A DNA stretch of 64,000 bases from a virus. How positions within the stretch are numbered: position 1 is the first letter of the stretch; every line of letters starts with the position of its first letter. The position numbers were made by a program, and so were the translations under genes. The DNA lies in IMG/VR virus record IMGVR_UViG_3300024999_000030, positions 186,001-250,000 of that record. One strand, given 5' to 3'. Shown here piece by piece: positions 10,483 through 50,112 of this stretch. The notes beneath the pieces were generated by a model. The model saw only the letters and a program-made list of their open reading frames with translations. It had not been told where the DNA came from and ran no database searches.

Positions 10483-10773
10483 ATGAATGGATTCACGAAC
10501 CATTATATTTCTGCAATGCAAGACTTCATCGCTAACCCCTGTGTAAAACGATGGCGAGGGGTTGAGAGATTAAGTGATCTTAATTGTAAATGTTTACTTT
10601 TAGGGGTTTCTCAAATAGGCTCCTGTGTCGGCTGTCCATTTTATTCTTTTCATCCGAATGGCAGTGCCTGTCCTCGCTTAAATACAGCCTCCAGAAAAAA
10701 ATTAAATTTGTTTATTCCAAGGTTAGTTCTTGCTTGTTTAGAAGCTATTGCTTATTTACAGGCTAAGGAGTAA
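10483..10773 (+). CDS. CxxCPF family protein 1
   Basis: 96 residues and first of seven tandem paralogues. Shared layout: a start helix ending in FI-x-NP (here MQDFIANP), a variable stretch, a lone Cys, then C-x2-C-P-F, a last Cys, and a closing helix (LACLEAIAYLQ). Cys at 35, 37, 48, 51 and 63; CVGCPF is the core. Four conserved Cys suggest a zinc or iron-sulfur site. Function unknown. Confidence 0.75.
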   Translation: MNGFTNHYISAMQDFIANPCVKRWRGVERLSDLNCKCLLLGVSQIGSCVGCPFYSFHPNGSACPRLNTASRKKLNLFIPRLVLACLEAIAYLQAKE

Positions 10774-10775
10774 AT

Positions 10776-11156
10776 ATGGCAAATTTAAGAAGGGTTACCG
10801 ATCAAAATCGTCAGGAACAAATTAAAGCCTTTGAGGCCTTTATTGATAATCCAACTTTGGAAAATCGGAAACACCTGGCGAAAGTGATGCTTTTTGATAG
10901 TGGGCGAGATGGCAAACGAGGCTTTTGTTCGCTTTCTCGGCGAGAAGATGAAGTCTATCCTATTGTTGAGGCTTGTGAGGGGTGCCCGTTTTTTACAAGT
11001 GGTCTCAAAAGTTATTGTCCAAGAACAGAATGGATAATGGAAGAGGACTTTCCTTCGTTAACCTTAAATCGTCGTGAAGAAATACAACAAGGCCAGGTTG
11101 CTGTTTTTATTCTGGCGTGTGTCCAGGCGATTGCTCACCTTAGGATTAAAGAGTAA
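10776..11156 (+). CDS. CxxCPF family protein 2
   Basis: 126 residues. FEAFIDNP start helix, Cys at 51, 67, 70 and 81 (CEGCPFF, then YCPRTE), and a closing helix ILACVQAIAHLRI. Two bases separate it from copy 1. Confidence 0.75.
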   Translation: MANLRRVTDQNRQEQIKAFEAFIDNPTLENRKHLAKVMLFDSGRDGKRGFCSLSRREDEVYPIVEACEGCPFFTSGLKSYCPRTEWIMEEDFPSLTLNRREEIQQGQVAVFILACVQAIAHLRIKE

Positions 11157-11459
11157 ATGAAAGATATTTTGCAAAACTCTCTAAATGCTTTGCAAAATTT
11201 TATTGATAATCCTAATCCAGAAACCTTTAAACAGGTTTACGAATCTTTTGCAGTCTTTAGAGTATGTCCTCTTGCCACAAAATATGAAAATATAGATATG
11301 TATCATTGTGAAAATTGTCCATTTCCCCGTGTGTTTAATCGTACTCGACTATTACAATGCCTTAGACAATATGGATATAGCTTTGATTCATCGAAATATT
11401 TAGGCCAAATGCTTGTTGCTTGTATTGAAGCAAAGGTTCTTCTGGAGGGCAGTAAATGA
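11157..11459 (+). CDS. CxxCPF family protein 3
   Basis: 100 residues, abutting copy 2. LQNFIDNP helix; Cys at 37, 51, 54 and 68 (CENCPFP, LQCLRQ); closing VACIEAKVLLEG. The motif is complete. Confidence 0.75.
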   Translation: MKDILQNSLNALQNFIDNPNPETFKQVYESFAVFRVCPLATKYENIDMYHCENCPFPRVFNRTRLLQCLRQYGYSFDSSKYLGQMLVACIEAKVLLEGSK

Positions 11460-11809
11460 CGAGAATAGAAATACTTAAATCACAAATCAAAGCTCTTCAA
11501 TCTTTTATTAACAACCCAATTAAAAATAATTGGAATAATATTTCATTAGCTTTTACTCAGGGATCAGCAGGAGGTCAAAAATGTACTCTAGCTGGCCCCG
11601 ATAATTCATATGGAACATGTCGTTCGTGTGTTTGGGCTAAAATAGATTATACCTACCCACGAAGTAAACGGTTTCGTAAGTTGTTACTTGGACACACCAA
11701 TAGAGTAAAATACTGTGGACCAGCATATCCAGAGACCGAACAACTTCCTTCGGTTATCCTAGCCTGTATTGAATCTGTGGCTAAACTGGAGGTTCTTTTG
11801 GAGGAATAA
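11456..11809 (+). CDS. CxxCPF family protein 4, variant core
   Basis: 117 residues, overlapping copy 3 by four bases. LQSFINNP and closing LACIESVAKLEVLLE are typical. The core is CRSCVW instead of CPF, with Cys at 43, 55, 58 and 87, so spacing to the last Cys is longer. Confidence 0.7.
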   Translation: MTRIEILKSQIKALQSFINNPIKNNWNNISLAFTQGSAGGQKCTLAGPDNSYGTCRSCVWAKIDYTYPRSKRFRKLLLGHTNRVKYCGPAYPETEQLPSVILACIESVAKLEVLLEE

Positions 11810-11810
11810 G

Positions 11811-12221
11811 ATGAAAAGAGAGAACATGGTAAGTGCCCACAATCTCAAACAACAGATTAGGGCGCTGGAAAACTTTATTTTTAATCCAATTAAATCCAAC
11901 TGGGCAGTTGTACATCGAGTTTTTTCTTATGATAACTATCAAGCCCATAAAAAATCCAACATAAAAGAAAACAGAAGTTGTTGTTCAGTTGCCTTTCTTT
12001 TATCCAGAAAAACCCTAACTCAAGATCAAGATGATAATTTCGCGTGCTCTACTTGTCCATTTTTCAAATTTCAAAATATTTGTTGCCCAAGAGCCGGCAT
12101 CAATGAAGACAGATGGCTAGAAGCAAAGACTTGGGAAGCCGTTCAAGAAAATCTACCACAAATTATTAAGAATTGTATTGAGTCTCTTGGGCTTATTAAA
12201 ACAGCCGAGGAGGGTCAATGA
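11811..12221 (+). CDS. CxxCPF family protein 5
   Basis: 136 residues from ATG 11811 (GGAGG upstream). LENFIFNP; Cys at 57-58, 79, 82 and 91-92 (CSTCPFF, CCPRAG); closing NCIESLGLIK. The loop between first Cys and core is enlarged. Confidence 0.7.
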   Translation: MKRENMVSAHNLKQQIRALENFIFNPIKSNWAVVHRVFSYDNYQAHKKSNIKENRSCCSVAFLLSRKTLTQDQDDNFACSTCPFFKFQNICCPRAGINEDRWLEAKTWEAVQENLPQIIKNCIESLGLIKTAEEGQ

Positions 12222-12595
12222 GAAAAAGAATTCTTTTAGAGGAAGTGAATCATATTAATAAGGTCATTATTCTTTTAGAAAATTTTATTAATGATCCGAC
12301 AATACCTAAACTTCGGATGATTAGTGATAGTCTTAGAAACTATCCATATAGAGAAAATAAAATTTTTTCTTGTTTTATTAATGCCATCGTATTTACCGGA
12401 AATGAATATGAAAACAAAAGATGTAAACATTGCCCATGTAAGAGTGAACCGCTTATCAGTATGATAAACTGCTATGGTCAGCCTGGACTTTGTTTAGAGG
12501 ATCCAAGTGACGATATATTTTTTTGTAAAGACATTCCCGTTACCATTAAAGCCTTGTTGGAAATTATCGGACTATTAAAAACCAAACTCCCATAA
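12218..12595 (+). CDS. CxxCPF family protein 6
   Basis: 125 residues, ATGA overlap. LENFINDP; Cys at 52, 69, 72, 74 and 85 (CKHCPC). The Phe of the core is replaced by Cys. Closing helix is LLEIIGLLK. Confidence 0.7.
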   Translation: MRKRILLEEVNHINKVIILLENFINDPTIPKLRMISDSLRNYPYRENKIFSCFINAIVFTGNEYENKRCKHCPCKSEPLISMINCYGQPGLCLEDPSDDIFFCKDIPVTIKALLEIIGLLKTKLP

Positions 12596-12611
12596 TATGA
12601 AAGGAGAAGAT

Positions 12612-12947
12612 ATGTTTGAGTTAACTCAAGAATATATGGAACAGCTTGTAATTGACATGGAAACTTTCATATCTTCTCCTACAATAGCAAATTGGAAAAT
12701 CTTAACCTCCCGTATGAGGATAGCAAGTAAATGTCCATTCTCCATAGCAATAGATAATTGCTGTCCGCCTGGGTGGCCACGATCAGCCTGTAGAGCTTGT
12801 GGATTTGATGCACCATCTTCAATAGACCCATGGCTCGATGTTGAGACGGGCTGCAACTATCCGAGAGATGATAATTCTAAAGCTGAGGTTATACATTTAT
12901 TTATTCAGTTTATTGCTATGTATAAAATTTTAATTAAAGGAGATTAG
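12612..12947 (+). CDS. CxxCPF family protein 7
   Basis: 111 residues; ATG 12612 is five bases after AAGGAG. METFISSP; Cys at 41, 50-51, 60, 63 and 81 (CRACGF). Here CPF has moved to the first Cys (KCPF). End of the tandem block. Confidence 0.65.
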   Translation: MFELTQEYMEQLVIDMETFISSPTIANWKILTSRMRIASKCPFSIAIDNCCPPGWPRSACRACGFDAPSSIDPWLDVETGCNYPRDDNSKAEVIHLFIQFIAMYKILIKGD

Positions 12948-18554: not shown

Positions 18555-18734
18555 ATGAAATTTAATAAAGGACACATCTTAGAGGCTGGAGATAGACTCC
18601 ATACGATGATTATTTTATCGGAGGAGTTGCTTAGAAATCATCCAGCACTTAAAAAAGCCAAATTAAACAAACGCTTTAAGAAAGTGATTAAAAAACTTAA
18701 TAACATGTATCAAAAAGTTTGGCAATTAAAATGA
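18555..18734 (+). CDS. 59-residue basic helical protein
   Basis: Starts after TAGGAG and ends in ATGA overlap with the next gene. Leu/Lys-rich helices; no family recognised. Confidence 0.5.
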   Translation: MKFNKGHILEAGDRLHTMIILSEELLRNHPALKKAKLNKRFKKVIKKLNNMYQKVWQLK

Positions 18735-19303
18735 AATCTCAGTCACTGAAACATAAATTCACTTACGAATGGATAGCGATATTTGGTTATGTTCCAGTTA
18801 AAAAAGACTTTGTCGCATACAATAGAAATGGTATAATTTTTCAAGGTCGTGTAATTTCTCCTCGCCCCACTTATTATGGAAACATTACCGTTGACCCTGG
18901 CGTTGGTTTAACTGAGCCCTTTCACATAGTCGGCGCGGCTGAGGTAATCTCAATTTTAACTTCAGATGGTAAGCGCTTTGCAAACGAAGAAAATAAATCT
19001 TCAGAAGGAATTTTTCCTGCTGGCTGGCAAATTCCTGTTGGTTGGCGAATTATGGGACCTAAGAAACAAGGAGGAGAAACGATGTGGTCTGATTATCCGA
19101 ATTTTAACCAAAACGGTGTTGACACAAGCGTGAATGATTTTTGGATTATTTTTTGTCCCGTCTGTAACAATGTAACTCTCGCCAAAGACGAGGCGGCGGT
19201 GAAGACCAAAGCAGAAGAGCTTACTGAGAAAAGCGGAAACCCTCATGTAATTTTTCACTCGAAGGGAGTTTGTACTCCAACCCGTAATGTGGTTTGGAGC
19301 TAA
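18731..19303 (+). CDS. CPxCNN-domain protein, single-repeat form
   Basis: 190 residues, coupled to the previous stop. A beta-rich N-terminal region (FVAYNRNGIIFQGRVIS) precedes a C-terminal domain with FWIIFCPVCNNVTL, a helix, HVIFHSKGVCTPTRNVVW. The domain closely matches the end of the 5687-7366 product, and CTPTRNVVW aligns with the end of the gene at 1-556. Two Cys in CPxC plus the later Cys could bind metal. Confidence 0.7.
   Translation: MKSQSLKHKFTYEWIAIFGYVPVKKDFVAYNRNGIIFQGRVISPRPTYYGNITVDPGVGLTEPFHIVGAAEVISILTSDGKRFANEENKSSEGIFPAGWQIPVGWRIMGPKKQGGETMWSDYPNFNQNGVDTSVNDFWIIFCPVCNNVTLAKDEAAVKTKAEELTEKSGNPHVIFHSKGVCTPTRNVVWS
19068..19084 (+). promoter_or_regulatory. Internal SD and in-frame ATG
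   Basis: AAGGAGGAG ends a few bases before in-frame ATG 19082, at the start of the CPxCNN domain. It is the third paralogue with this arrangement. Confidence 0.55.
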
Positions 19304-20048
19304 TATTATCTAGGGCCTCTTTCTGAATTGTAGGCTGAATTGACGAAAGCAGTGTGGACGAGATCAAACGGCTTAAATGAGCGTTTAGTCGCACTGAAAG
19401 GTTAAGGATGCCGAAGCCCTATTACATGGCGTGTCGGAAGAGGTGTCCCAGAAAGAAGGTGACTGTGTTTTATTGTCGCAGCCCTTGACTAATGTTTATA
19501 ATACAAAGTAATTGTATAAAAGAATATAATGAACGAGTAACCTGGGACGTAGGCTCATCCCCTCCTCAGGGCGTGTTAAATTTTTAAAACTGTTGCCTGA
19601 GACATCTTAACTAATGTTGGGTGTTGTAGAAGGGCGATAGTTAATTCTTGGATTAGAAATCATGCGGCCCCCTTATGATGAATTGAAACGTTTAATACCG
19701 CGCCAATCCCATAAGATGTGGTTCGAAAAACAACGCTGCAGCGTTGTAGTGACTCTAATCTAGAAAGGAGAATAACATTGGCCGCTTATATAAACATAAT
19801 GGTCAGATGTAGAAGCTCGGATTAAATAATCCCCATAACTAAAAAATGGAGTCGAGTGCCCGGGAAGTTGAACTGATATCCTTACAGGCTTTTAAAAATT
19901 AAGTCCACTATCCTGTGTTTAAAAATAAACCCAGGATCTGATGGTCAGATGTAAGATGTTATCAGTTTGCCCCGGGGCAAGGTTAATGCAGCCGGATGAT
20001 AATCCGCCAGTCCCAAGCCTGGAAATGCAGAGGGGAATAGGAAATGTT
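19304..20048 (+). ncRNA. 745-base structured non-coding region
   Basis: No convincing gene. Paired segments include CAGTGTG 19350-19356 with CGCACTG 19390-19396 enclosing AAACG/CGTTT, and GATTAGA 19651-19657 with TCTAATC 19754-19760. There is an 18-bp palindrome at 19730-19747 and a 14-bp palindrome at 19967-19980. A 13-base direct repeat (ATGGTCAGATGTA) occurs at 19799 and 19941. AAAGGAG 19764-19770 precedes a TTG that would make a 15-residue peptide (19778-19825). One or more RNAs are likely; no known family could be named. Confidence 0.5.
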
Positions 20049-20360
20049 ATGAAAAAATATTCTATGCAAAATTTTAATGATGCTCTTGATAATTTAATTA
20101 ATAACCCGAGTAAAAAAACTTTCATTGCTTTTTTAAGAATTGCTGGTGAGGCTCCGGGAGATTGTCCACTATGTAGGTACTTAAGTAATGTCCGTAGACT
20201 AGATATACCTTGTTCATTTAAAGATTTGGATTGTCCTATGGGATTAAATTCAAATACCCATGAATTTGTATGTGCGCCATCATCTATAAATCTCATTCCT
20301 TTATCTAGAGTAGTAACCAAAGCAATCGAACTTAAAGCGTTCTTAGAAACAATAAAATAA
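20049..20360 (+). CDS. CxxCPF family protein 8
   Basis: 103 residues. LDNLINNP helix; Cys at 39, 42, 55, 62 and 75 with core variants CPLC and CSFKDLDCPM; closing IELKAFLE. It sits alone between two structured non-coding regions. The start is chosen by family length. Confidence 0.65.
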   Translation: MKKYSMQNFNDALDNLINNPSKKTFIAFLRIAGEAPGDCPLCRYLSNVRRLDIPCSFKDLDCPMGLNSNTHEFVCAPSSINLIPLSRVVTKAIELKAFLETIK

Positions 20361-22177: not shown

Positions 22178-22190
22178 GGCTATCACTGTG

Positions 22191-22241: not shown

Positions 22242-22253
22242 TAGGAGGTGCTC

Positions 22254-22727: not shown

Positions 22728-23060
22728 ATGCAACCATTTATTGCAGCACTTCAATCTTTTATCAATGAACCAAATTTAACCTCATGGTTAGATATGGTTG
22801 AAGTTTGGAGACATGAATCCTTACAAAGTAAAAACAAGGATTGCCCGATAAAATTTGAAATCGTCGGGATGAACACATTGATGTGTGGCGATTGTCCATT
22901 TTTAAATGCACATCCATGCCCATGGATAGTCAGTAATTTAGATTCCCCAAAAGGTAAAGAGCATTTTAAAGAAATACAAAGTATTCTTTTAGTCGATAGT
23001 ATTATTTTATTATCTAAATTACAAGCAATGGAAAATATAAATGTCAAAAAGAGAGACTGA
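22728..23060 (+). CDS. CxxCPF family protein 9
   Basis: 110 residues. LQSFINEP, Cys at 39, 53, 56 and 64 (CGDCPF, PCPW), closing IILLSKLQAME. First of a second cluster. Confidence 0.75.
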   Translation: MQPFIAALQSFINEPNLTSWLDMVEVWRHESLQSKNKDCPIKFEIVGMNTLMCGDCPFLNAHPCPWIVSNLDSPKGKEHFKEIQSILLVDSIILLSKLQAMENINVKKRD

Positions 23061-23403
23061 TGCTAAAGTTATTCTTGTTAATTTTGTGAATCACCCAACA
23101 CCTGAAACTTGGGAAGAAGTACACAAATATTGGGAAATTCAAAATGCATGTCCATTTAATATAATGTATGAAGGCAGATGTGGTTGTTGTCCTTTTACAA
23201 GATTTGGAAAAAATCTTCATTTATCGATGCATGATTCAGCATTTGAACATCTTTGTCCATTTTATAAAAATACTCATTTAGATTTGAGTTCTAGGCTTGT
23301 TGCTAGTATTCAAGCCGTTGCTTATATAGAAACATATGAAAACTTAGAGATAGAGCAACTGGTTCCCCTGTGGACAAGGGAAATCAACAAGGGTGGAGGA
23401 TAA
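23041..23403 (+). CDS. CxxCPF family protein 10
   Basis: 120 residues, overlapping copy 9 by 20 bases. LVNFVNHP; Cys at 37, 47, 49, 50 and 72 (CGCCPF, LCPF); closing SIQAVAYIETYE. Confidence 0.75.
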   Translation: MSKRETDAKVILVNFVNHPTPETWEEVHKYWEIQNACPFNIMYEGRCGCCPFTRFGKNLHLSMHDSAFEHLCPFYKNTHLDLSSRLVASIQAVAYIETYENLEIEQLVPLWTREINKGGG

Positions 23404-23410
23404 AAATAAA

Positions 23411-23605
23411 ATGAGAAAAAATAAATTTTTCAAAAACTTTATTGCGTCTCTCAAAGAAGCAATAACAATGAATATCAATCGTAAAGATCCCCCACCTAAA
23501 ACCACATATAGAACTTTAAATGATGGTAGTGTCCTTAGAACTATCACATATTATAGTTCCGATGGTCAAGTTGTGAGAACGGAAACTGACCACTTGCCAA
23601 AGTAA
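23411..23605 (+). CDS. Hypothetical 64-residue basic protein
   Basis: GGAGG lies 12 bases upstream. An in-frame GTG at 23393 is another possible start. The C-terminal part has short strands (SVLRTITYYSSDGQVVRTE), a small beta sheet. Confidence 0.5.
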   Translation: MRKNKFFKNFIASLKEAITMNINRKDPPPKTTYRTLNDGSVLRTITYYSSDGQVVRTETDHLPK

Positions 23606-23929
23606 TGTTATATCAAAAAACAATTAATGCTTTAAGGTTATTTACAGAACAACCTAACCCCCATAATTGGAAAAATATTTCATTAGCATTAATTGATGAA
23701 TCTAATGAACTACTACAACAATGTTTATTGGGCTCTCCTGGACCAACCAAGGGATCTCCAGCCCATTGTTGTGATTGTCCATTTTGGCAAATATAAACAA
23801 ACTAATACATTTTGCCCTAGGTTTATATACAGAAGGCCTTCTATCGAAAGATTTGGAGAGGCAGTTTCCGTTGTTATGGCCATTCAAGCTATTGCTAGAT
23901 TAGAAATGTTAGCTGAAGAACATGAGTGA
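23605..23929 (+). pseudogene. CxxCPF family protein 11, frame-shifted
   Basis: The first frame has LRLFTEQP and HCCDCPF, then stops; the next frame carries NTFCPRF and the closing VVMAIQAIARLEMLAEE. Removing one T from TTTT 23782-23785 restores a full 107-residue member (CPFGKYKQ). Confidence 0.6.
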
Positions 23930-24221
23930 ATATATAAAAGATTATTCTTTTATTATTAACAGAATATTATTTAAAAAGGCATTGGAAGAATTTATATCTA
24001 ATGTTAACGAGGATTCATTCCAACTTTTGAAAAGATTTGCCTTGTCTGGTATATCATGTAGGGTATTGGCCCCCACTCGTTATCAAAATCCATATTGTTA
24101 TGGGTGTTGTTTCCAATCTGAGCGCGGGTGTATATTGAGCACAAATACCGCCGAAACAGTTCTTGGTAGTATACAGGCTTTAGCTTTTATTCTTTCGGAG
24201 GAGGAAGATGGCAGAACCTAG
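23922..24221 (+). CDS. CxxCPF family protein 12
   Basis: 99 residues. LEEFISNV; Cys at 46, 59, 62-63 and 70 (CYGCCF); closing SIQALAFIL. The CPF Pro is replaced by Cys. Confidence 0.7.
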   Translation: MSEYIKDYSFIINRILFKKALEEFISNVNEDSFQLLKRFALSGISCRVLAPTRYQNPYCYGCCFQSERGCILSTNTAETVLGSIQALAFILSEEEDGRT

Positions 24222-24474
24222 TAATATAAAATACCTTAAGAGGTTTATTGCGTGCCCCTCTTCTGAAAATTGGGAAGAGGTAAAAATTCATGCGGTAAGA
24301 GATTGTTATTTTGGGTCTGAATGCCCATTAATAAATATCAACAATGGGTGTTGTCCACTTTTAACTAGTGTACCGTCCGAAAACTATCCCACTTCAGATG
24401 ACTTACCTAAGCTCACCGTCATTGCTATTCAATATTTGGCGCTACTGGAATCTAGGGGAACAAAAAACTACTAA
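24208..24474 (+). CDS. CxxCPF family protein 13, short form
   Basis: 88 residues. LKRFIACPSSENW; Cys at 33, 39, 48 and 49 (ECPL, CCPL); closing AIQYLALLE. The CxxC pair is compressed to CC. Confidence 0.65.
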   Translation: MAEPSNIKYLKRFIACPSSENWEEVKIHAVRDCYFGSECPLININNGCCPLLTSVPSENYPTSDDLPKLTVIAIQYLALLESRGTKNY

Positions 24475-24991: not shown

Positions 24992-25480
24992 ATGAAATAT
25001 TACAGAGTAAATAATCTTAAAGAAAATCACATGGGCCTTCAATATAAAACTGGTTTAGTGGAAGATTATCGACGATGTGGGATTGGTTTTCTAGGTGGTA
25101 TTCATTTTGCTAGTGTAGATATTCTTGCATTCATTAATTTTGGACCATGGATTAGGGAAGTAACTATTCCCTCCAACACTATTATTCATAAGGCCGGATA
25201 CAACGCTAAAGAGTTTAAGGCTCAACGAGTTATTCTTGGTGAACGAAGGAAAATTACACTATCAGTAATTAAAGAATTAGTTTCTGAGGGGGCAGATGTC
25301 AACGCCGTTAATGGGACTCCCCTTATCAATGCCACCTGTCTTAGAAATTTTGGGCTTGTGAAGACACTGTTGGACTGTGGTGCAAATCCCATGGTGTCTG
25401 ATGCTGAGGCTCTGAAAATAGCAAGTAAGATTAATCGCTATGATATTTTAAACCTTTTAACTGGGACCACGAATGAGTAA
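24992..25480 (+). CDS. Ankyrin-repeat-like protein
   Basis: 162 residues from ATG 24992 (GGAGG upstream). The C-terminal half has VSEGADVNAVNGTPLI and LLDCGANPMVSDAEALKIA, about two ankyrin repeats. The N-terminal 80 residues are unrecognised. A protein-binding role is likely. Confidence 0.65.
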   Translation: MKYYRVNNLKENHMGLQYKTGLVEDYRRCGIGFLGGIHFASVDILAFINFGPWIREVTIPSNTIIHKAGYNAKEFKAQRVILGERRKITLSVIKELVSEGADVNAVNGTPLINATCLRNFGLVKTLLDCGANPMVSDAEALKIASKINRYDILNLLTGTTNE

Positions 25481-25793
25481 ACCTAAAAAATCATCTAAAT
25501 TTAACGATGATGAAATTGTTGTTTTCGTTTATAATTTAATGAAAGAATTTATTAGTAATCCAAATATTAAATTATGGGAAGACATTCTTGAAGGCTTTCC
25601 ATGTCGATTTGATGATTGTGAAAATTGTCCCATGAGTCGAATCAATTGTTTTGATATTGATAGTGAGGGGTGGGAAAAAACAACAGGCATGTGTGTAACT
25701 TGCTCTATAGAAATTATAGCTATGTGTGAGTCTGAGATTTTTCCATTCAGACCTTCTACATGTAACTCAAAAGAAAAGTGGAGAATGGAATGA
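25473..25793 (+). CDS. CxxCPF family protein 14
   Basis: 106 residues. MKEFISNP; Cys at 44, 49, 52 and 59 (CENCPM, NCFD). The C-terminal helix is diverged and followed by an extra Cys-containing tail. Confidence 0.65.
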   Translation: MSKPKKSSKFNDDEIVVFVYNLMKEFISNPNIKLWEDILEGFPCRFDDCENCPMSRINCFDIDSEGWEKTTGMCVTCSIEIIAMCESEIFPFRPSTCNSKEKWRME

Positions 25794-26386
25794 TTTTATC
25801 AATCGTGGCGACTAAAACAAATATATCATATAAAGAACAAGAAATAAGATTGCGAAAAAAATATAAAGAAATCGGGTCAGGCCGGGATGCAGAAATATAT
25901 AAAGTTTCAAGTAATCGAGTTATTAAGCTTCATAGAATGTTTACTGGGACCCATCACAATGATCCCTACTGGAATTTTCTTCGTATTATGCCAGAAAATA
26001 ATATTTATTTTCCTAGGATTTTTGATATAAAACTATACCGCTTTAAGTCCTTAGATCGGGTAGAGGAATATACAATAATAAAAATGGAACATCTAATCAA
26101 ACTGAATGACTTTTCCAATCGAGGACAGGTTCTAAGAGCTGCTATTCAAGATTTTGGTTTTCCAAAATGTGCTGAGGATAAATTTATTTCACGACTGGCA
26201 AATTGGGCGCTAGGTTGGAAAAGAAAACAAAAGAACATGCAACTAAATCCTCAAACTCAAATGGCAATGGATGTATTAGATACTTTGAAATCCTTGTCAT
26301 GCGGCGACCCAGATTTACACGAAGGTAATTTTATGGTTAGAAAAAAAGAACACAGCCAGTTAGTAATTATCGATCCAATGGCATAA
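25790..26386 (+). CDS. Protein-kinase-fold protein
   Basis: 198 residues, ATGA overlap. EIGSGRDAEIYKVSSNRVIK looks like the glycine-rich loop and the ATP-binding Lys, and CGDPDLHEGNFMVR with VIIDPMA matches the catalytic loop (D-x-H-x-GN) and metal-binding Asp of small phage kinase-like proteins. It may phosphorylate a host protein or small molecule. Confidence 0.7.
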   Translation: MILSIVATKTNISYKEQEIRLRKKYKEIGSGRDAEIYKVSSNRVIKLHRMFTGTHHNDPYWNFLRIMPENNIYFPRIFDIKLYRFKSLDRVEEYTIIKMEHLIKLNDFSNRGQVLRAAIQDFGFPKCAEDKFISRLANWALGWKRKQKNMQLNPQTQMAMDVLDTLKSLSCGDPDLHEGNFMVRKKEHSQLVIIDPMA

Positions 26387-27196: not shown

Positions 27197-27434
27197 AAAA
27201 TGTCAATATCGAATTGAATTTGAGGGAGAAATAGTTATTCACTCCCGACGGGCTGATGGTTCTTGTTATCATTATTATATCTGTTCTGAGTGTTTTGATA
27301 TTAGAGCATATAAGGATATTAAGAACTGCCCTAAGTGCTTCGTTTGGCACGATGATAATGATCACTGCCCAAAGTGTGGAGTGGGGCCAGTAAATGTAAA
27401 TAGAATTATTCATGAATTTGGGAGAGTAACATGA
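27177..27434 (+). CDS. Zinc-ribbon protein
   Basis: 85 residues from ATG 27177, chosen by GGGAG spacing. CEKC, then CSEC, CPKC and CPKC form a double zinc ribbon. A nucleic-acid or protein contact role is inferred. Confidence 0.65.
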   Translation: MPSLRCEKCQYRIEFEGEIVIHSRRADGSCYHYYICSECFDIRAYKDIKNCPKCFVWHDDNDHCPKCGVGPVNVNRIIHEFGRVT

Positions 27435-27787
27435 TTCCACATAGGGAGTGGATAAATTCTATGGAAAATTTTATCCGCGATCCTAGTTTTGAAAACATGT
27501 TGATGGTAAGAAAAATTAGAGACGATTACGGTTGCTCCAGCTACTCTCGTGATGGACAGCAGGGAAGGGGACCGCTTTGGCCTAGAGATGGTAGAAGCAT
27601 ATCCAGTTTATGTAAGGAGTGTCCATTCCAAACACATGTGGGCGCGGTTGGAGGATGGTGTTTATTACAAGAGTTAAGAGATAAAAAACATTTTATTACT
27701 TACTCTGGTTTATTAATTGAGCGATCAAAAAAAGCTGTAAATGATTTACGTGGAATGTGGTCAGATTCCCGAGGAAATCAATTCTGA
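27431..27787 (+). CDS. CxxCPF family protein 15
   Basis: 118 residues, ATGA overlap. MENFIRDP; Cys at 35, 61, 64 and 77 (CKECPF, WCLL); a 25-residue insert separates the first Cys from the core. Confidence 0.7.
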   Translation: MIPHREWINSMENFIRDPSFENMLMVRKIRDDYGCSSYSRDGQQGRGPLWPRDGRSISSLCKECPFQTHVGAVGGWCLLQELRDKKHFITYSGLLIERSKKAVNDLRGMWSDSRGNQF

Positions 27788-31468: not shown

Positions 31469-31804
31469 ATGGAAAATTTTTCTTCATATATATATGAGCT
31501 TTATAGTGCTTCTAAGTCTTTTATTGAGGGTCCAAATGAAACAACTTGGAATGAACTTTCGTTAGCAACGGTCACGTGTCAGCTCTACAAATATAAAAAA
31601 GATAAAACTGAGGAATCCTATAAACATCATTGTGAGGATTGTCCTTTTTGGCCTATTTTACATTCACATAGTCATATTAATAATCCTGGGTGTCGTCACG
31701 ATTCCAGATCTAAATTACCAATAGCCGTTAGGTTAAGTAAAATTATAGAACTCATGGCTCTATTGGAAACTGAGTTTAGCTGGGTGGGTAAATATGGGAG
31801 ATGA
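31469..31804 (+). CDS. CxxCPF family protein 16
   Basis: 111 residues. SKSFIEGP; Cys at 37, 55, 58 and 75 (CEDCPFW, GCRHD); closing LSKIIELMALLE. It follows the bistable leader. Confidence 0.75.
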   Translation: MENFSSYIYELYSASKSFIEGPNETTWNELSLATVTCQLYKYKKDKTEESYKHHCEDCPFWPILHSHSHINNPGCRHDSRSKLPIAVRLSKIIELMALLETEFSWVGKYGR

Positions 31805-32081
31805 AGGAAAAGTAGGACAAATGTATGACATGCGTACTATAAAACAACTTACAAATTTTATTAATCAACCTACTCAGGTAAATTGGGAAAAAATAAACTT
31901 TACTCATGATAGTTGCTATATATCTGACGAAGCTAATTGTTGTCATAATTGCCCATTTTTAAATTCATCAAATGGAGTTTGTTTAGCAATACATGGAAAT
32001 TTAGAAATAGGAAAAAAATTAGCATTGAGCATTGCGTTACGCGCAAAGCTGCAAGCTATTTGGGGTGAATATGAGCTATAG
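31794..32081 (+). CDS. CxxCPF family protein 17
   Basis: 95 residues; start aligned with copy 18. LTNFINQP; Cys at 41, 49-50, 53 and 63 (CCHNCPF, VCLAI). A recent duplicate of copy 18, sharing WEKI-FT-D-CYIS and KLALSI. Confidence 0.75.
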   Translation: MGDEGKVGQMYDMRTIKQLTNFINQPTQVNWEKINFTHDSCYISDEANCCHNCPFLNSSNGVCLAIHGNLEIGKKLALSIALRAKLQAIWGEYEL

Positions 32082-32349
32082 CGGAAAATGGGGCAGAGAA
32101 TATGACATGCGCATAATGAAACAGCTTAAAATTTTTATTGATAAACCTACACAAAATAATTGGGAAAAAATACCCTTCACTTCCGATGGTTGCTATATAT
32201 CTATCGAAGCTGGATGTTGTCATGAATGCCCATTTGACAATGAAGAGAGTTGTAAAGCTGTAAAATCTGGATTAGACATTGGAAAAAGATTAGCATTAAG
32301 CATTGAATTACTTGCAAAATTACAAGTTGTTTGGGGTGAAGATGGGTAG
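32071..32349 (+). CDS. CxxCPF family protein 18
   Basis: 92 residues, overlapping copy 17 by 11 bases. LKIFIDKP; Cys at 41, 49-50, 53 and 61 (CCHECPF, SCKAV); closing ELLAKLQVVWGE. Confidence 0.75.
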   Translation: MSYSGKWGREYDMRIMKQLKIFIDKPTQNNWEKIPFTSDGCYISIEAGCCHECPFDNEESCKAVKSGLDIGKRLALSIELLAKLQVVWGEDG

Positions 32350-32640
32350 ATTAGATGATATGATAAAAGCTTTACAAGATTTTATTCGTGATCCCAACAC
32401 ACAAAATTGGCTTAATATTAATAAAGTAAGGGTCGATGTTATTAGAGGCGGATGTTTTTTCTCTTATAGTGTCTCAACCAGCGATGAGTGTCGAGATTGT
32501 CCATATGGACGAAAAAATACAACAGACCCATTTTTTTGTACTTCAGCTCTTTGGAAAAAAAGGCGGAAGAAGGAAATACAGCTAGAAAATTACTTGGGGC
32601 AATAGAAATTTTGGCCAAACTAGAGGCCGTGAAAGGATAA
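32342..32640 (+). pseudogene. CxxCPF family protein 19, frame-shifted
   Basis: LQDFIRDP and Cys at 38, 50, 53 and 66 (CRDCPY, FCTSA) are intact. The frame then shifts in the A7 run 32555-32561. One added or two removed A would restore the closing helix ARKLLGAIEILAKLEAVKG, which ends at TAA 32638. Confidence 0.6.
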
Positions 32641-35525: not shown

Positions 35526-35546
35526 CTAACGCAAGGAGGAAAAGAA

Positions 35547-37079: not shown

Positions 37080-37094
37080 ACTAAATTTTATAAT

Positions 37095-37115: not shown

Positions 37116-37129
37116 TCTATGGAGGTCAT

Positions 37130-37972: not shown

Positions 37973-37983
37973 ACGGAGATCGC

Positions 37984-39667: not shown

Positions 39668-39847
39668 ATGTATAAGCCTTACATACCAGAGCGTGACAAA
39701 AACATCAAGCTTTATAATGATGGGCATTCCTGTCATTTGAAACCATTACCTCTCGACATGGAGGAGAAAGAGAAGGAACGAAATGTTCTTCACCGACTAT
39801 GGACAAATATTAGAAAGCTCATTTCCCTGCGGAGAGAAAAATGTTAA
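39668..39847 (+). CDS. 59-residue protein overlapping PRPP-synthetase-like gene
   Basis: ATG 39668 opens MYKPYIPERDKN and runs 65 bases into the next gene in another frame. The first 40 residues look coding; SD is weak. Confidence 0.4.
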   Translation: MYKPYIPERDKNIKLYNDGHSCHLKPLPLDMEEKEKERNVLHRLWTNIRKLISLRREKC

Positions 39848-40601: not shown

Positions 40602-42071
40602 TGCCCAGAATCCCAATGCTTATGGCCGACTTCTATAAAATAGGCCATAGAGAACAGTATCCAGATGGAACACAAACCGTGTATTCAACTTGGACGCCGA
40701 GAGCAAGTAGGGTCGAACCAATAAAACATGTAGTTGCCTTTGGGTTCCAAGCCTTTATTAAGAAGTATCTCATTCAGTTTTTCAATGAGAACTTTTTTGA
40801 AAGACCGAAGGCCGATGTGGTTTCTGAATACAAGAGGGTAATTTCTTCAACTCTTGGGATAGGGAACCCGCATACCCAACATATCGAAAGGCTTCATGAT
40901 CTCGGATATCTTCCAATTAAAATTATGGCTGTGCCAGAAGGCACCAGAGTCCCACTTCGAGTTCCGATGCTCACAATAGAAAACACAGGCTCGGAGTTTT
41001 TCTGGCTCACAAATTTTCTTGAAACACTTATGTCTTGTGAAATTTGGCTGGCAAGCACGAGCGCAACAACCGCAGCCGAGTACAGAAAAATCCTGGATCA
41101 CTATGCAAAGTTGACTGGTGATCCAGAGTTTGTTAAATTCCAAGGGCATGATTTCAGTTTTAGGGGCATGGCGTGCTTAGAGGCTGCTGAAATGAGTGGA
41201 GCGGGACATCTTCTCAGTTTTGTTGGAACAGATTCAATTCCAGCCATCACATATCTAGAGGAATATTATCACGGGAATGTAGAGAAAGAATTAATTGGAT
41301 GTTCAGTGAACGCTACTGAGCATTCTGTTATGTGTGCTGGGGGGGGCTAACAACGAATTTGAAACATATAAGCGACTGATGTTCGATGTTTATCCAACAG
41401 GGATACTTTCAATTGTCTCTGACACTTGGGACTTCTGGAATGTCTTATCTAATATTATTTTTCCACTAAAGGATGGAATAATCAAGCGTGATGGAAAGAT
41501 TGTCATTAGACCAGATAGTGGTGACCCAACTAAAATAATTTGTGGGGATCATGATGCTAACAACCTCCTCGCATATAAGGGGGCCATCGAAGTTCTTTGG
41601 GACATATTTGGAGGTACCGTTAACGATAAAGGATATAAATGTTTGGACCCACACATTGGTCTGATTTATGGTGATGCCATCACCCTTGATCGATGTAGGG
41701 AAATTTGCAGCGGGCTCGAAGCAAAGGGCTTCGCATCCACAAATGTCGTCTTTGGTATTGGGTCATATACATATCAATGTGTAACACGTGATACATTTGG
41801 CTTCGCTTTAAAATCAACCCATGTTACAATTAATGGAGAAGATGTAAACATCTTTAAGAATCCACTAACTGACTCCGGGTCCATAAAGAAGTCGGCAATT
41901 GGAAGGGTGGCTGTCCTACAGAAAGACGATGGGGAACTTTATTTGTCCGATGGACATGGCCGGGAAGAAGTTCCTGGAAATCTCTTATCTCCTATTTTTG
42001 TGAATGGTGTATTAGTTAAAGAACAAACACTTGCAGAAATTCGCGAAAGACTTACTTCTGTAAAAACTTAA
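40601..42071 (+). pseudogene. Nicotinamide-phosphoribosyltransferase-like enzyme (candidate Namat), frame-shifted
   Basis: The start overlaps the previous stop by one base. DFYKIGHREQYPDG at the start, VPEGTRVPLRVPML, FSFRGMACLEAAEMSG, then FETYKRLMFDVYP, IVSDTWDFWNV, VIRPDSGDP, YGDAITLDR and FGIGSYTYQC cover the whole NAMPT fold. The two halves are in different frames, joined at G8 41339-41346; seven G would give CAGGANNEF and a normal product of about 489 residues. Either phase variation, a programmed shift or an indel. Confidence 0.75.
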
Positions 42072-42083: not shown

Positions 42084-42515
42084 ATGCCAGATAAAATTAA
42101 AGTTACATATTCATCTGGAGTTATTAAAGAAGTAACGGCGACTACCGCAGCTAAGATTTACAGAAGGCAAGCCAGACAAGCTATTGAACGGGCTATGGCA
42201 CATGATATAGAATATTATGAATTGTTTAACATTTTAAAACATCCCGTAAATGACTATAGATGTCTTATTTCCGAATGTCTTACTGGAAAAAAGGGTTCAT
42301 ATTCTTTTTCTACTTGTGAAGAATGTTTTTTTGAAAGTAAATATGGTTGTGTTCTTAAGCTTATTACTAGTGAGCTAATGACGGAAGATACAGCTAGTTC
42401 CTATATTAAAAAATTACTGGACCTGAAGGGCATCGGCACATTAGAACTTTTTATTATTAAAGTTCATGCGGGGTTGCAAGCCACTGGACTTGGAAACAAA
42501 TCCCAAAAGAGGTGA
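42084..42515 (+). CDS. CxxCPF family protein 20, divergent
   Basis: 143 residues. ILKHPVNDY stands in for the NP motif; Cys at 60, 65, 78, 81 and 89 (CEECFF, GCVL). Longer N- and C-terminal helices than usual. Confidence 0.55.
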   Translation: MPDKIKVTYSSGVIKEVTATTAAKIYRRQARQAIERAMAHDIEYYELFNILKHPVNDYRCLISECLTGKKGSYSFSTCEECFFESKYGCVLKLITSELMTEDTASSYIKKLLDLKGIGTLELFIIKVHAGLQATGLGNKSQKR

Positions 42516-43620: not shown

Positions 43621-44145
43621 ATGTCATATATGGATAGTATTTTTGAAGCAAGTAGTTATAAAAATATTGTTTCTAAAACAGCATTAGTAATTGATAAGAT
43701 TTCCGAAAAACATAATAAACTTTCTATTGTTCATACGGGATTAAGTGGTGGTTTAATTGGCCATCCCGTTGCAATGGCTCTAAAACTTAATAGCATGCAC
43801 ATTAGAAAGAATGATCAGAGTCATGGAGATCCAATAGAGGCTGGATATAGTTCACCCGATAAGCAAATTAAGTTTCCATATGCTATCGTTGATGATTTTA
43901 TGGATAGTGGTGATACCATTAAGAAAATAATTAAGAAAATGAAAAACTTTTTTCCCAAATGTTTTCCGGTTGGAATTGTATTATATGATGAAATCTCTTT
44001 TGATGTGTGGGACCATAAAGTGATTAACTCCGTAGTAAAGGGAGATTTTTCTGTCTATACCTTTTGGCATAAAGCTAAAGGATATAGAGTACACACCTTC
44101 GATGGCAAAGAATGGCATGAATCTAAAACTCTTAAAAAGTTTTGA
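43621..44145 (+). CDS. Type I phosphoribosyltransferase-like protein
   Basis: 174 residues. HTGLSGGLIGHPVAMAL forms the first strand-loop, KNDQSHGD recalls the flexible loop, and YAIVDDFMDSGDTIKKI near 100 is the 13-residue PRPP-binding motif with two acidic residues and DSGDT. These enzymes move phosphoribosyl between PRPP and a base. The base is not evident, but it suits a phage that handles PRPP and NAD+. Confidence 0.75.
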   Translation: MSYMDSIFEASSYKNIVSKTALVIDKISEKHNKLSIVHTGLSGGLIGHPVAMALKLNSMHIRKNDQSHGDPIEAGYSSPDKQIKFPYAIVDDFMDSGDTIKKIIKKMKNFFPKCFPVGIVLYDEISFDVWDHKVINSVVKGDFSVYTFWHKAKGYRVHTFDGKEWHESKTLKKF

Positions 44146-44152: not shown

Positions 44153-44665
44153 ATGTTTCCAATGTATAATATCAATGAATTTATTAATTTGATAGATAAG
44201 TTTTTATCAAACCCGACTATTAATTCCGCTCATTCTTTCTTAACTAATCCCTATATGTTTGGTGGTTTTGGAGCTGCTCCTGGAAGAGTAAGTGCCAAGG
44301 CTATATATTATGATTGTCAATTTCATCATCATGTTCTTGGGGGGCAGGAGAGAAGTCAACAGTATTGTGATCGATGTCCATTTGCTCATAAAGGCAATTT
44401 AGTAACCAAGAATCAAGCCTTCTATTCAAACTGTTCTCTTGTACATTCATTTGTATTATTTGAAGTACCTCCACATTATTCTGATGTTACATGTCTCGAC
44501 ACAAATGAACAATATGGATTATCTAAGTGTTCTCTTGTTAATTTAATTCCAAAGTTAATTATGGGGTTAATAACCATGAAAGCTATTTGTGAAATTAAAA
44601 AAGAAAAACTCCGACAAGTTAATGAAAAAAGGAGAATGTCCCGTGGTAAATCCCAAAACCCGTAG
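44153..44665 (+). CDS. CxxCPF family protein 21, long form
   Basis: 170 residues. IDKFLSNP; Cys at 55, 72, 75 and 94 (CDRCPF, NCSL), plus C112 and C125. Closing LIMGLITMKAICEI is followed by a charged tail that overlaps the next gene. Confidence 0.65.
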   Translation: MFPMYNINEFINLIDKFLSNPTINSAHSFLTNPYMFGGFGAAPGRVSAKAIYYDCQFHHHVLGGQERSQQYCDRCPFAHKGNLVTKNQAFYSNCSLVHSFVLFEVPPHYSDVTCLDTNEQYGLSKCSLVNLIPKLIMGLITMKAICEIKKEKLRQVNEKRRMSRGKSQNP

Positions 44666-45899: not shown

Positions 45900-46147
45900 G
45901 GCTTCAACAAGTAGAATCATATCCTAAAGCTAACGATGAATACTGGACAGAAATAAGTCTAGGAAATGCGATTGCCATTTCATTTACAGTTAATGAAAAT
46001 GGGGAGTGTAACAAAGCTCTTATATCTGATATGCGGGATGGCATTCAATTTGAAATAGATTTTTTAGCTAAAACAAGTTGGTATGACAGAGCTGTTATGA
46101 AAGCGAAAGAGGTAAAATTATGTCTGCACAAAATAATTTCATCTTAA
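45896..46147 (+). CDS. Hypothetical 83-residue protein
   Basis: Beta-rich start (ISLGNAIAISFTVNENGEC). Overlaps the L7/L12-like gene by 28 bases. Confidence 0.5.
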   Translation: MRLQQVESYPKANDEYWTEISLGNAIAISFTVNENGECNKALISDMRDGIQFEIDFLAKTSWYDRAVMKAKEVKLCLHKIISS

Positions 46148-46482
46148 CAGTAAAGTCTTTAATCAGCGCTGGTAAAAAAATTGAAGCCATTAAGGAAGTG
46201 AGAGAGGTTTTACTTCTTGGTTTAAGGGATGCTAAGGATTTAATTGATGCCTGTGAGGCTGAGAAGAGTATGGAACCGCTCACTAGAGTCGCTAGAAACA
46301 TTGCCTCGCAAACTGTCAAAGGTTCTCCAAGTATTGTATTAGTTGTTTTTGACGGAGAGGATTCTAGTGTATCTTGTCGGCTCTCTATTGGCACCTTTTC
46401 CTGTAAGGATGTGACTGAAGTTCAAATCAAGCGGGCCATTGCTATGATAGGGGCTGCTCAAAATTGCGATGTCCAAGAATAA
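46120..46482 (+). CDS. Protein with ribosomal L7/L12 C-terminal-like helix motif
   Basis: 120 residues. KKIEAIKEVREVLLLGLRDA followed by KDLIDA matches the K-I-x-x-I-K-x-x-R-x-x-x-x-x-GL-x-x-AK-x-L pattern of the L7/L12 C-terminal domain, which contacts translation factors. The remaining half is unlike L7/L12. A mimic that targets translation GTPases is possible. Confidence 0.6.
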   Translation: MSAQNNFILTVKSLISAGKKIEAIKEVREVLLLGLRDAKDLIDACEAEKSMEPLTRVARNIASQTVKGSPSIVLVVFDGEDSSVSCRLSIGTFSCKDVTEVQIKRAIAMIGAAQNCDVQE

Positions 46483-46714: not shown

Positions 46715-47054
46715 ATGAGGCCCGTGGACATGATGTTGGAAGAATTTTCTATTTTTGTAGCTCATCCAACTAAGCGAACAGCGACAAGTGCTATTAATTC
46801 CTTAGTTGGACTTAATAACACAAGGACTAAATGTGATGCAGTATTTTTCAACTGTATGGAGTGTCCCCTTTTTTTTAAAGGAACCATATACAGAAACTCG
46901 ATATGGAGGCACATACCCAACACTAAAAAGCATTTATTGTTTGGCCGTTAAAATGAATATGAAATTACACTTACATAATTTTGAAACAGAAATCATGTCG
47001 GAATTTGTAAAAAAGGGTCTTGAGTTTGTAGCTGCCCTTCAGATGAAGGTGTGA
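46715..47054 (+). pseudogene. CxxCPF family protein 22, frame-shifted
   Basis: EEFSIFVAHP, a lone Cys and NCMECPLF are in one frame, and the closing helix GLEFVAALQM in the next. The break is in T8 46869-46876; seven T would restore the frame. Confidence 0.55.
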
Positions 47055-47498: not shown

Positions 47499-47968
47499 TT
47501 CGCACGATAGAAGAGTTTTTTGTTGAGTCCGAGGCAATTGGTAAACAACTTTTAGCTGGAGAGGAGGGACATAAGATTGATGTCTCTCCAGAAATATTAG
47601 CAAAGATAGTCAGTAATTTTAATGATTCATTAAAAACCCTAGACCACTTAAAGACGTGGGTTGCGGATCTTGAGAATGCTGAGCCCGAAGATGACGAAGA
47701 AGCGGAACTTATGTCTCGTCTTTTAGCTGGGCAGGTGTTGGGTATTCGCGCTCATTTTAGATTATTTGAATATCTAGATAAATATGAACCTGGATTTAAA
47801 AATGGATACACAGCACCACTTAAAGAAGTTATGACTACAATGTATGAAACTATCAAAGCTAAATTTCCATCAGCCCTTAATTTGGCAGACGAAATTGAGA
47901 ATGGTAATGAAAGCGCTGGCTGTGCTCATGACTGCAAGGGATGTCATGGAGGGTGTGGTGGCGACTAA
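47495..47968 (+). CDS. Helical protein with Cys/Gly-rich tail
   Basis: 157 residues. Acidic helices end in CAHDCKGCHGGCGG, a likely metal-binding tail. The next CxxCPF gene starts nearby. Confidence 0.6.
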   Translation: MIRTIEEFFVESEAIGKQLLAGEEGHKIDVSPEILAKIVSNFNDSLKTLDHLKTWVADLENAEPEDDEEAELMSRLLAGQVLGIRAHFRLFEYLDKYEPGFKNGYTAPLKEVMTTMYETIKAKFPSALNLADEIENGNESAGCAHDCKGCHGGCGGD

Positions 47969-47987
47969 AGATGTTATTCTTATTAGA

Positions 47988-48503
47988 ATGGAAGGATTTA
48001 GAAACGCAATTGATGCGTTTTTAACTGATCCCGGCGAGATTCCATTACTGAAAATTAGAAAGGAATATTTAAAAAGAAATCAATGTCCCTTGCAAGTGGG
48101 GCTTGGAGCGGGTACAAAGAGTTGGAACAATGTAAGTAATCCAATTATGAGTCCGCTGACTGACACCAACCCCATGGTAAAAGATTTTCATGACAGGATG
48201 CAGGAGACTTTGAAGGGTGGCTCTTCTTATTATAATTGTAATTTCTGTTCCATTTGCCCCGTGTCGATTCTCAATAAACAGCGATGTGGCATAGACGAAT
48301 ACTATGCTAAGGCTAGAGCTAGAATGGCTTTTCAGCAAGGCCTGAAGAAAAACCATGAAAAATTAGATAGCAGAACTAAAGAAGTTTTAGATGATCACCG
48401 TTCTGGTTGCTCTGATCTTATGAGCGTTTGTCTCGCTGGTTTTATCGAACTTTCGGCAGTATTAACTTCTATTCTTCATGGAGAGGAATGCACCAATGCC
48501 TAA
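47988..48503 (+). CDS. CxxCPF family protein 23, long form
   Basis: 171 residues. IDAFLTDP; Cys at 33, 84, 87, 90 and 100 (CNFCSICPV, RCGID). A 50-residue insert lies between the first Cys and the core. In-frame upstream starts (ATG 47946, GTG 47955 or 47958) are possible. Confidence 0.6.
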   Translation: MEGFRNAIDAFLTDPGEIPLLKIRKEYLKRNQCPLQVGLGAGTKSWNNVSNPIMSPLTDTNPMVKDFHDRMQETLKGGSSYYNCNFCSICPVSILNKQRCGIDEYYAKARARMAFQQGLKKNHEKLDSRTKEVLDDHRSGCSDLMSVCLAGFIELSAVLTSILHGEECTNA

Positions 48504-48693: not shown

Positions 48694-48694
48694 T

Positions 48695-48889
48695 ATGTCA
48701 GCATTTAGATCGGGAGACTTAGTTACCGTCTCCCCCTTTGACGACGACTTCTTCTTTCCGTTTGTCGGGACAATAGTCCAAGTGACAAGGGATACAGATA
48801 GGGAACTATATTTAGTTACCTGCTGCGAAGGAGAAGTATATACTGTTGTCGAGGAGCAACTGACATTTGCAGAGCCTAGGGAGAAATGA
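48695..48889 (+). CDS. Small SH3-like protein
   Basis: 64 residues from ATG 48695. FRSGDLVTVSPF, GTIVQVTRD and LYLVTCCEGE follow the KOW/SH3-like repeat pattern. Confidence 0.6.
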   Translation: MSAFRSGDLVTVSPFDDDFFFPFVGTIVQVTRDTDRELYLVTCCEGEVYTVVEEQLTFAEPREK

Positions 48890-49020
48890 TGGACCTCAAG
48901 TGCCTTATTTGTGGTGCTGCTATTTCTTGTATAATTCCAGAAGAGTGGCCGTACCAAAATATTTTTCCCGTAAATTGCACATCTTGTCACAAACAACAGC
49001 TCATTACTATTAAGGACTAA
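48889..49020 (+). CDS. 43-residue zinc-knuckle protein
   Basis: ATG 48889 (or 48886) with GGGAG upstream. CLIC and CTSC pairs 23 residues apart. Ends in a one-base overlap with the next gene. Confidence 0.55.
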   Translation: MDLKCLICGAAISCIIPEEWPYQNIFPVNCTSCHKQQLITIKD

Positions 49021-49220
49021 TGGAATGGGGAGAAGTGTTAGACATTCTTAATCTAGCTTTTACTGATAAAGGTGTGGCTCTTCGAGATATTAGGAACGCA
49101 TCGTCTCTTTCCCCTCCCGCTGAAACGGTATATAGAGAAGAGGGGGAAAATAATACTGTTGCCCCATCTAATGTTGGCGTGACTAACATAGCTGACTGGA
49201 AAAAGAGGAAAAACAAATGA
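49020..49220 (+). CDS. Hypothetical 66-residue protein
   Basis: A helical start and a disordered Glu/Asn-rich middle, ending WKKRKNK. Coupled at both ends. Confidence 0.5.
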   Translation: MEWGEVLDILNLAFTDKGVALRDIRNASSLSPPAETVYREEGENNTVAPSNVGVTNIADWKKRKNK

Positions 49221-49297
49221 AATGGTTAAAAATTGTAATCATTGACTTCTGGTTTAATGGTTTTGAATATTGGCGAGAAAAATTTTTGAGACGGTAA
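49217..49297 (+). CDS. 26-residue peptide
   Basis: ATGA overlap with the previous gene and direct abutment to the next start. Trp/Phe-rich amphipathic helix with a basic end. Confidence 0.4.
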   Translation: MKWLKIVIIDFWFNGFEYWREKFLRR

Positions 49298-49690
49298 ATG
49301 TTATCAAGGGCCGTTGCTTTACGCCAAATTGAATTGTTTATAAAAACTCAAGATATTAATATAATTATCCAATTGACTGAAAACATCATGAGTGACTCAG
49401 GAAATCATTTTAAATTTTCTTTATTAAAAGAGTGTCCATTTGTTAATAGTAATATAACCTGTAGAAGCTTTTTAAAAAATTGTCCATTGTACATGTCATG
49501 GAGAAAAAGATTTCCATATTCTTATTGCAGTTGTGCCTTCTCTGAAATATCAATGTTAGTACATGGCGGTGGGCCGACTGCAATAAAATTTATTATGAGC
49601 GAATTACTTTTAGCTTTAATAATAATGGTTGGAACTGTTAAAGCGGACATGACCGCCATAGAGGAAAAATGGCCAAATCGGTTACCCTAG
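49298..49690 (+). CDS. CxxCPF family protein 24, divergent
   Basis: 130 residues. LRQIELFIK helix; Cys at 46, 55, 62, 77 and 79 (ECPF, NCPL, CSC). The CxxC is absent but CPF and NCP are kept. Closing LLLALIIMVG. Confidence 0.55.
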   Translation: MLSRAVALRQIELFIKTQDINIIIQLTENIMSDSGNHFKFSLLKECPFVNSNITCRSFLKNCPLYMSWRKRFPYSYCSCAFSEISMLVHGGGPTAIKFIMSELLLALIIMVGTVKADMTAIEEKWPNRLP

Positions 49691-50112
49691 TCCTTACTGA
49701 GAGATTTGTAGAATCCCTCAATAATTTTATTGCTAGTCCGTCTGGATCTACCTATTCTATTCTAGCTGACACCTGGAAGGTTAATAGGGTCTCGTGGATA
49801 AAAAACAAGAACGAATATAAATTGGGACTAGGGGCGCGAACGGCAAACAAAACTCTACCAATTCTTATGTGTCAAGCTAGAGCGATTCCAGCGCAAGGTT
49901 CATGTTTTGGTTGTGACTTCTATTCTCATAGTGGGTGTCTTATATATAGTGTTAGGCATAAAAGCACCATTAGTAAGCGCCTCTTAGCTGCGATGGAAAT
50001 ACAAGCAGCATTAAATACTGTGGAGTATTCCACTTCAGATGATGCTTTTGTTGCTAAGTGTGCAGGTGAAGAAAGAATGAAAAAACTTATTGAAGAACAA
50101 GACGATGAATGA
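49669..50112 (+). CDS. CxxCPF family protein 25
   Basis: 147 residues. LNNFIASP; Cys at 68, 79, 82 and 90 (CFGCDF, GCLI); closing MEIQAALNTVE and an acidic tail. Last member in the window. Confidence 0.65.
   Translation: MAKSVTLVLTERFVESLNNFIASPSGSTYSILADTWKVNRVSWIKNKNEYKLGLGARTANKTLPILMCQARAIPAQGSCFGCDFYSHSGCLIYSVRHKSTISKRLLAAMEIQAALNTVEYSTSDDAFVAKCAGEERMKKLIEEQDDE

Follow-up and report, generated by a model that had tools for sequence, protein, structure and literature searches.

A lineage-restricted expansion of small four-cysteine proteins, candidate metal-stapled scaffolds with hypervariable loops, in an uncultivated phage

Bases 186001-250000 of a 332,730-bp contig from an uncultivated phage (IMG/VR virus record IMGVR_UViG_3300024999_000030) carry 25 copies of a gene family that encodes small proteins with four conserved cysteines. 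This stretch of 64,000 nucleotides is referred to here as the window; all coordinates are in window numbering, and values that are negative or above 64000 lie outside it on the same contig. The copies are homologous and share a kept scaffold with two variable loops; they have grown in number by tandem duplication, with decay, and are located among accessory genes. In the collections searched, they are confined to one phage lineage. The best explanation overall, for and against which the chances are about even, is that these proteins are metal-stapled scaffolds that have been diversified as intracellular binders for host takeover or counter-defence.

All six-frame open reading frames (ORFs) of the window were covered by a scan for the cysteine pattern and an iterated profile search. 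The original prediction had claimed about 25 loci, 21 of them intact and four diverged; exactly 25 were recovered, but the division differs, with 22 loci in an unbroken frame and three broken by frameshifts (23605/23693, 32342/32488 and 46715/46806). The tandem blocks lie where they had been placed, with seven copies at 10483-12947 (block B), five at 22728-24474 (block C) and four at 31469-32640 (block D). Nearly all convincing genes in the window are on the + strand, and a ribosome-binding-like site precedes nearly every copy.

E-values from the iterated search are not independent, since each member is inside its own model. In the leave-one-out hmmsearch, each model omits the member under test together with every relative that BLAST can detect; most window members then score between E 1e-5 and 1e-14, and the best of about 1000 non-family ORFs reaches about 0.005-0.5. 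When all Cys positions are masked as X, in the model as well as in the target, E-values of 1e-5 to 1e-10 remain for most core members. As these Cys-masked scores hold, the members are true homologues, flanking helices included, and the alignment extends beyond the cysteines. The weakest window members are those at 42084-42515 (E 0.004) and 46715 (E 0.012). The copies in the window, all on the + strand, are as follows.

Copy 1: 10483..10773, + strand, 96 amino acids (aa), heads tandem block B; leave-one-out E 5e-12.
Copy 2: 10776..11156, + strand, 126 aa, block B; leave-one-out E 1.5e-14.
Copy 3: 11157..11459, + strand, 100 aa, block B.
Copy 4: 11456..11809, + strand, 117 aa, block B.
Copy 5: 11811..12221, + strand, 136 aa, block B; start tentative.
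Copy 6: 12218..12595, + strand, 125 aa, block B.
Copy 7: 12612..12947, + strand, block B; 111 aa (116 aa if the start is at 12597).
Copy 8: 19941..20360, + strand, 139 aa, lone; start possibly further in.
Copy 9: 22728..23060, + strand, 110 aa, block C.
Copy 10: 23041..23403, + strand, 120 aa, block C.
Copy 11: 23605..23929, + strand, frameshift after CxxCPF (23605-23796 plus 23693-23929).
Copy 12: 23922..24221, + strand, 99 aa, block C.
Copy 13: 24208..24474, + strand, 88 aa, block C; Cys core shortened.
Copy 14: 25473..25793, + strand, 106 aa; overlaps the start of the T7 gp0.7-like kinase gene.
Copy 15: 27431..27787, + strand, 118 aa.
Copy 16: 31469..31804, + strand, 111 aa, block D.
Copy 17: 31794..32081, + strand, 95 aa, alternative start 31821, block D; 61% identity to copy 18; AlphaFold target.
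Copy 18: 32071..32349, + strand, 92 aa, block D; recent duplicate of copy 17.
Copy 19: 32342..32640, + strand, block D; frameshift before the closing helix (32342-32605 plus 32488-32640).
Copy 20: 42084..42515, + strand, 143 aa, diverged; directly 3' of NARP1-like genes; leave-one-out E 0.004.
Copy 21: 44153..44665, + strand, 170 aa.
Copy 22: 46715..47054, + strand, frameshift (46715-46951 plus 46806-47054); E 0.012, weak alone.
Copy 23: 47946..48503, + strand, 185 aa, long C1-C2 loop; orthologue in the related contig G002, 44% identity.
Copy 24: 49298..49690, + strand, 130 aa; no orthologue in G002.
Copy 25: 49669..50112, + strand, 147 aa; orthologue in G002, 42% identity; second AlphaFold target.

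The expansion is larger than first counted. Across the whole contig, the iterated profile picks up about 45 loci within 126 kb; 40 are unbroken and five broken, and five of the total are supported by weak profile scores. They span window positions -46307 to +79987, or 139.7-266.0 kb of the contig. Outside the window, the weakest are at -33942, -31756 and -42431 (E 0.01-0.07) and are tentative.

-46307 and -42431: single copies, the latter tentative.
-33942 to -31000: a group, in which -33942 and -31756 are tentative.
-11068 to -8016: a second seven-copy tandem block, upstream, with one copy broken.
65472-68918: five long tandem members, downstream, of about 210-290 aa, in which an extra N-terminal domain precedes the four-Cys domain.
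77582 and 79802: further downstream copies, the first with an orthologue, the second broken.

This copy number stands out within the contig: at an equal BLAST threshold, the next-largest paralogue cluster has three members in the roughly 164 kb compared. The only other three-member paralogue set consists of similar stretches in three proteins (1-556, 5633-7366 and 18704-19303), with SH3-like repeats in 5633-7366.

Each protein follows the plan N-helix, C-x(3-54)-C-x2-C-P-x(6-51)-C, C-helix, with a middle spacing of x6 in two members. All four cysteines are kept in 42 of 50 aligned rows, and the middle pair is CxxC in nearly all. A proline follows the third cysteine in 28 of the 42 rows; the next residue is mostly F, L, Y or W. 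Compared pairwise, the copies are about 25% identical in the N-helix, 47% across the knuckle and 21% in the C-helix, but 8-9% in the two loops, both of which are different in every copy and vary in length several-fold (coefficient of variation about 0.78). A hydrophobic stretch resembling a membrane span is absent from most copies (maximum KD19 2.14). The AlphaFold model of copy 17 comprises a helix, a short helix, the Cys core and a helix (predicted local distance difference test, pLDDT, 78; predicted template modelling score, pTM, 0.72). For the divergent copy 25, the same order of helices is predicted at a mean pLDDT of 65, with low-confidence loops. For copy 17, Foldseek matched nothing in the PDB or among viral models.

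A single family, with its four-Cys site and closing helix, is supported as originally described; for the site itself, metal is the natural reading, and zinc and Fe-S fit alike. The four cysteines likely hold a metal ion, either Zn2+ or [4Fe-4S]. An A-type Fe-S carrier (PF01521), sought in the contig as a hint of Fe-S, is absent, which is uninformative on the type of metal.

Copies from the same block cluster on the family tree, with 15 label changes compared with 22.4 after shuffling, and none of 200 shuffles is as low; deep branches are unresolved. Copies 17 and 18 form the most recent pair (61% identity, dN/dS 0.47). No stretch of the family alignment is conserved enough to be used for finding related loci, and single-copy and orthologue-pair scans across viral contigs recovered only two, G001 and G002. 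The first (112 kb) is base-identical to the phage contig across the 68 kb compared and probably stems from the same sample, so that the frameshifts cannot be verified independently with it. The relative G002 (70.7 kb) has an overall median protein identity of 63%; its conserved MoxR-vWA proteins are 79-92% identical. The block syntenic with G002 holds 11 loci in the phage contig versus four in G002, three of which are shared (42%, 44% and 64% identity). These orthologue pairs are far closer than most paralogues, and most duplications therefore probably predate the split. For one orthologue pair, dN/dS is 0.12.

Searches of Pfam, PHROGs, NCBIfam and the PDB gave no significant match, only scattered single-member matches at E 0.01 or worse, and tblastn of phage and plasmid collections returned nothing or chance matches. 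Profile searches of about 70 phage records and contigs plus 20 bacterial genomes gave nothing below E 0.009. The phage part of this set consists of 16 contigs with a related terminase, 49 that encode a related ClpP, and the records of five phages, namely an uncultured one of 735 kb, Lak-A2, Bacillus phage G, Sinorhizobium phage Phosso and Salmonella phage Arash. The positive control, G001, was detected in two of the four profile searches, and the other two were run without a control. Since many of the searched contigs are fragments and the family diverges fast, its absence elsewhere could partly reflect missing data or lost detectability. The literature searched contains no account of such a family. 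The family is new; its kind, a lineage-specific viral multigene family probably concerned with host interaction, has precedents, mainly in eukaryotic viruses. The multigene families of African swine fever virus, which modulate host responses, likewise consist of tandem, diverged, lineage-specific copies in an accessory region. Their proteins are unrelated and belong to a eukaryotic virus, whereas host modulation by the four-Cys family is only presumed.

In the favoured interpretation, the copies would be small cytoplasmic metalloproteins built on one common scaffold, in which Zn2+ or [4Fe-4S] would staple the two flanking helices via the lone Cys, the CxxC(P-F/L) knuckle and the last Cys. This scaffold would display the C1-C2 and C3-C4 loops, whose length and sequence differ from copy to copy. 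The individual copies probably act early in infection, each binding another host or defence component (protein, or perhaps nucleic acid) and altering or blocking it. The set would owe its size to recurrent tandem duplication within a single phage lineage, with copies diverging and some being lost, a pattern to be expected of an arms race or of a host range that changes.

The family region is accessory in character, with many small genes of unknown function; the terminase lies about 59 kb past the last copy, at 325 kb of the contig. It shows distant kinship to SPO1-like and other phages and has relatives at 83%, 57% and about 35% identity on other contigs. Three genes within the family region bear on its possible role.

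25790..26386, + strand: weak match to a T7 gp0.7-like kinase and host transcription inhibitor (phrog_15752, E 2.4e-5), following copy 14.
39783-40601, + strand: PRPP-synthetase/Adps-like gene (PRPP, phosphoribosyl pyrophosphate), part of a NARP1-like pair.
40601-41350 plus 41334-42071, + strand: Nampt/Namat-like gene in two frames, split at a G7 run near 41341.

The last two resemble the NARP1 NAD+ reconstitution genes (Adps/Namat) and are probable counter-defence genes directly 5' of copy 20; as enzymes, they are unrelated to the four-Cys family and provide context only. The Nampt-family protein contains GSYTYQCVTRD, which agrees for the most part with the Namat signature given in PMC12774641; at one of the two adenine-stacking positions, a Cys takes the place of an aromatic residue, and specificity for ADP-ribose pyrophosphate (ADPR-PP) is therefore unproven. 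The split at the G7 run may equally be an assembly error, phase variation or decay.

Several other features adjoin or intersperse the family. A 5' nucleotidase (NT5C; 50714-51265) and an isochorismatase-family hydrolase (51262-51927) may, together with 39783-42071, form an NAD/nucleotide set. Two paralogous phosphoribosyltransferase-like genes (43621-44145 and -7924 to -7232) each adjoin four-Cys members. A hairpin followed by TAATGTG occurs at 10405-10482, upstream of block B and copy 1, at 22178-22253, upstream of gene 22254, and also at -7939; it is possibly a shared promoter or processing element, and is too rare to call. The stretch 34407-39647 encodes an ABC permease and ATPase alongside a substrate-binding protein of the NMT1/phosphonate type that is fused to OmpA (35547-37079); this OmpA-NMT1 fusion has relatives in Lak megaphages, the 735-kb phage, and metagenome-assembled genomes of Bacteroidetes, Nitrospirota and others. 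A segment resembling the C-terminal part of ribosomal L7/L12 lies at 46120-46482 (Pfam E 4.5e-7). A strong ClpP homologue (52894-53490; Pfam E 6e-80, 84% identical in G002) adjoins a gene with an SLT transglycosylase domain (53491-54150), and a MoxR-type AAA ATPase is followed by a DUF2201 metallopeptidase/vWA protein at 59819-62232 (92% and 79% identity in G002).

The original prediction had offered two functions, a diversified set of effectors or subunits of an assembly. The effector set fits better in view of the hypervariable loops on a kept scaffold, the turnover and decay of copies, the NARP1- and gp0.7-like neighbours and the distant terminase; its anti-host or anti-defence activity is presumed. 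Tandem paralogues of packaged internal proteins are known in other large phages (phiKZ-type), and a paralogous set of virion or assembly subunits, or of injected internal head proteins, would have these as its model. This is nevertheless very unlikely for copies that are scattered across 126 kb of accessory genes, about 59 kb from the terminase, that are too divergent in sequence and loop length for a repeated lattice, and whose number changes sharply between relatives. A largely neutral multigene family, in which a bias towards tandem duplication, together with weak selection, maintains many metal-binding copies that are redundant for a single function (such as buffering of metal or redox state, or an RNA-binding knuckle), would account for the five broken copies, the near-random loops and the absence of any sign of positive selection in the few measurable pairs. 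Against this stand about 40 copies with an open frame, most of which have a ribosome-binding-like site and the full set of four cysteines, and three orthologues that persist in G002; moreover, the 164 kb compared contain no other family of similar expansion, so that duplication bias alone is insufficient, and neutrality appears rather unlikely.

It is similarly improbable that the copies are small transcription reprogrammers, which would bind host or phage RNA polymerase or a sigma factor and tune different promoters or stages. Size, helix-C4-helix layout and the presence of several paralogues per genome do resemble Wbl proteins and phage TraR homologues; the former carry [4Fe-4S] and bind sigma region 4 (PMC6282962), and the latter have a C4 zinc finger and bind RNA polymerase (PMC9239242). 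Wbl proteins, including actinophage WhiB, share the length of 80-140 aa, the helical character, the C-n-C-x2-C-n-C arrangement and the CxxCP knuckle, which is also followed by a hydrophobic residue in phage TM4 WhiB. However, the C1-C2 and C3-C4 spacings are far more variable in the present family. The G[V/I]WGG motif that follows the last Cys in WhiB-like proteins (PMC6282962) is absent from every member, PF02467 has no match in the members or the contig, and hhalign against TM4 WhiB gives a probability of 1.7% over 14 columns. TraR/DksA proteins such as phage lambda Orf73 are likewise small phage proteins with an N-helix, a C4 metal site and a C-helix. Their CxxC-x17-CxxC is absent (CxxC...CxxC is confined to 77582, the orthologue of 77582 and 25473, where the spacing differs), and DxxDxA of the N-terminal helix is found in no member (features from PMC9239242). 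Motif and profile tests thus yield no homology to Wbl or TraR, and a single polymerase target alone does not demand about 40 copies.

Several points also weigh against metal-stapled host-takeover or counter-defence binders. Metal binding, although likely, is inferred, as are early cytoplasmic expression, target binding and the anti-host or counter-defence role, and the second AlphaFold model (copy 25, pLDDT 65) is poor in the loops. With dN/dS at 0.47 in the one measurable recent pair and 0.12 in an orthologue pair, positive selection is not supported, and the loops may vary simply from lack of constraint. Two orthologues, at 42-44% identity, fall under the quartile range of other genes (50-72%) yet inside the full range, and the third is at 64%. 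The adjacency to NARP1-like genes could be a coincidence in a long stretch of small genes of unknown function.

The family has no detectable relative beyond its lineage, and its copy number is far above that of other families in the compared stretch. Taken to its full extent, the preferred explanation would give the phage a repertoire of about 45 copies of one metal-stapled two-loop scaffold, each directed at a different host or immune component, which is put forward as a tentative possibility. If the copies do bind different host targets, they would constitute a ready panel for finding factors and defence systems of the uncultivated host, and would exemplify warfare by multigene family in a phage. 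Should they not be binders, they still define a new, probably metal-binding, protein family.

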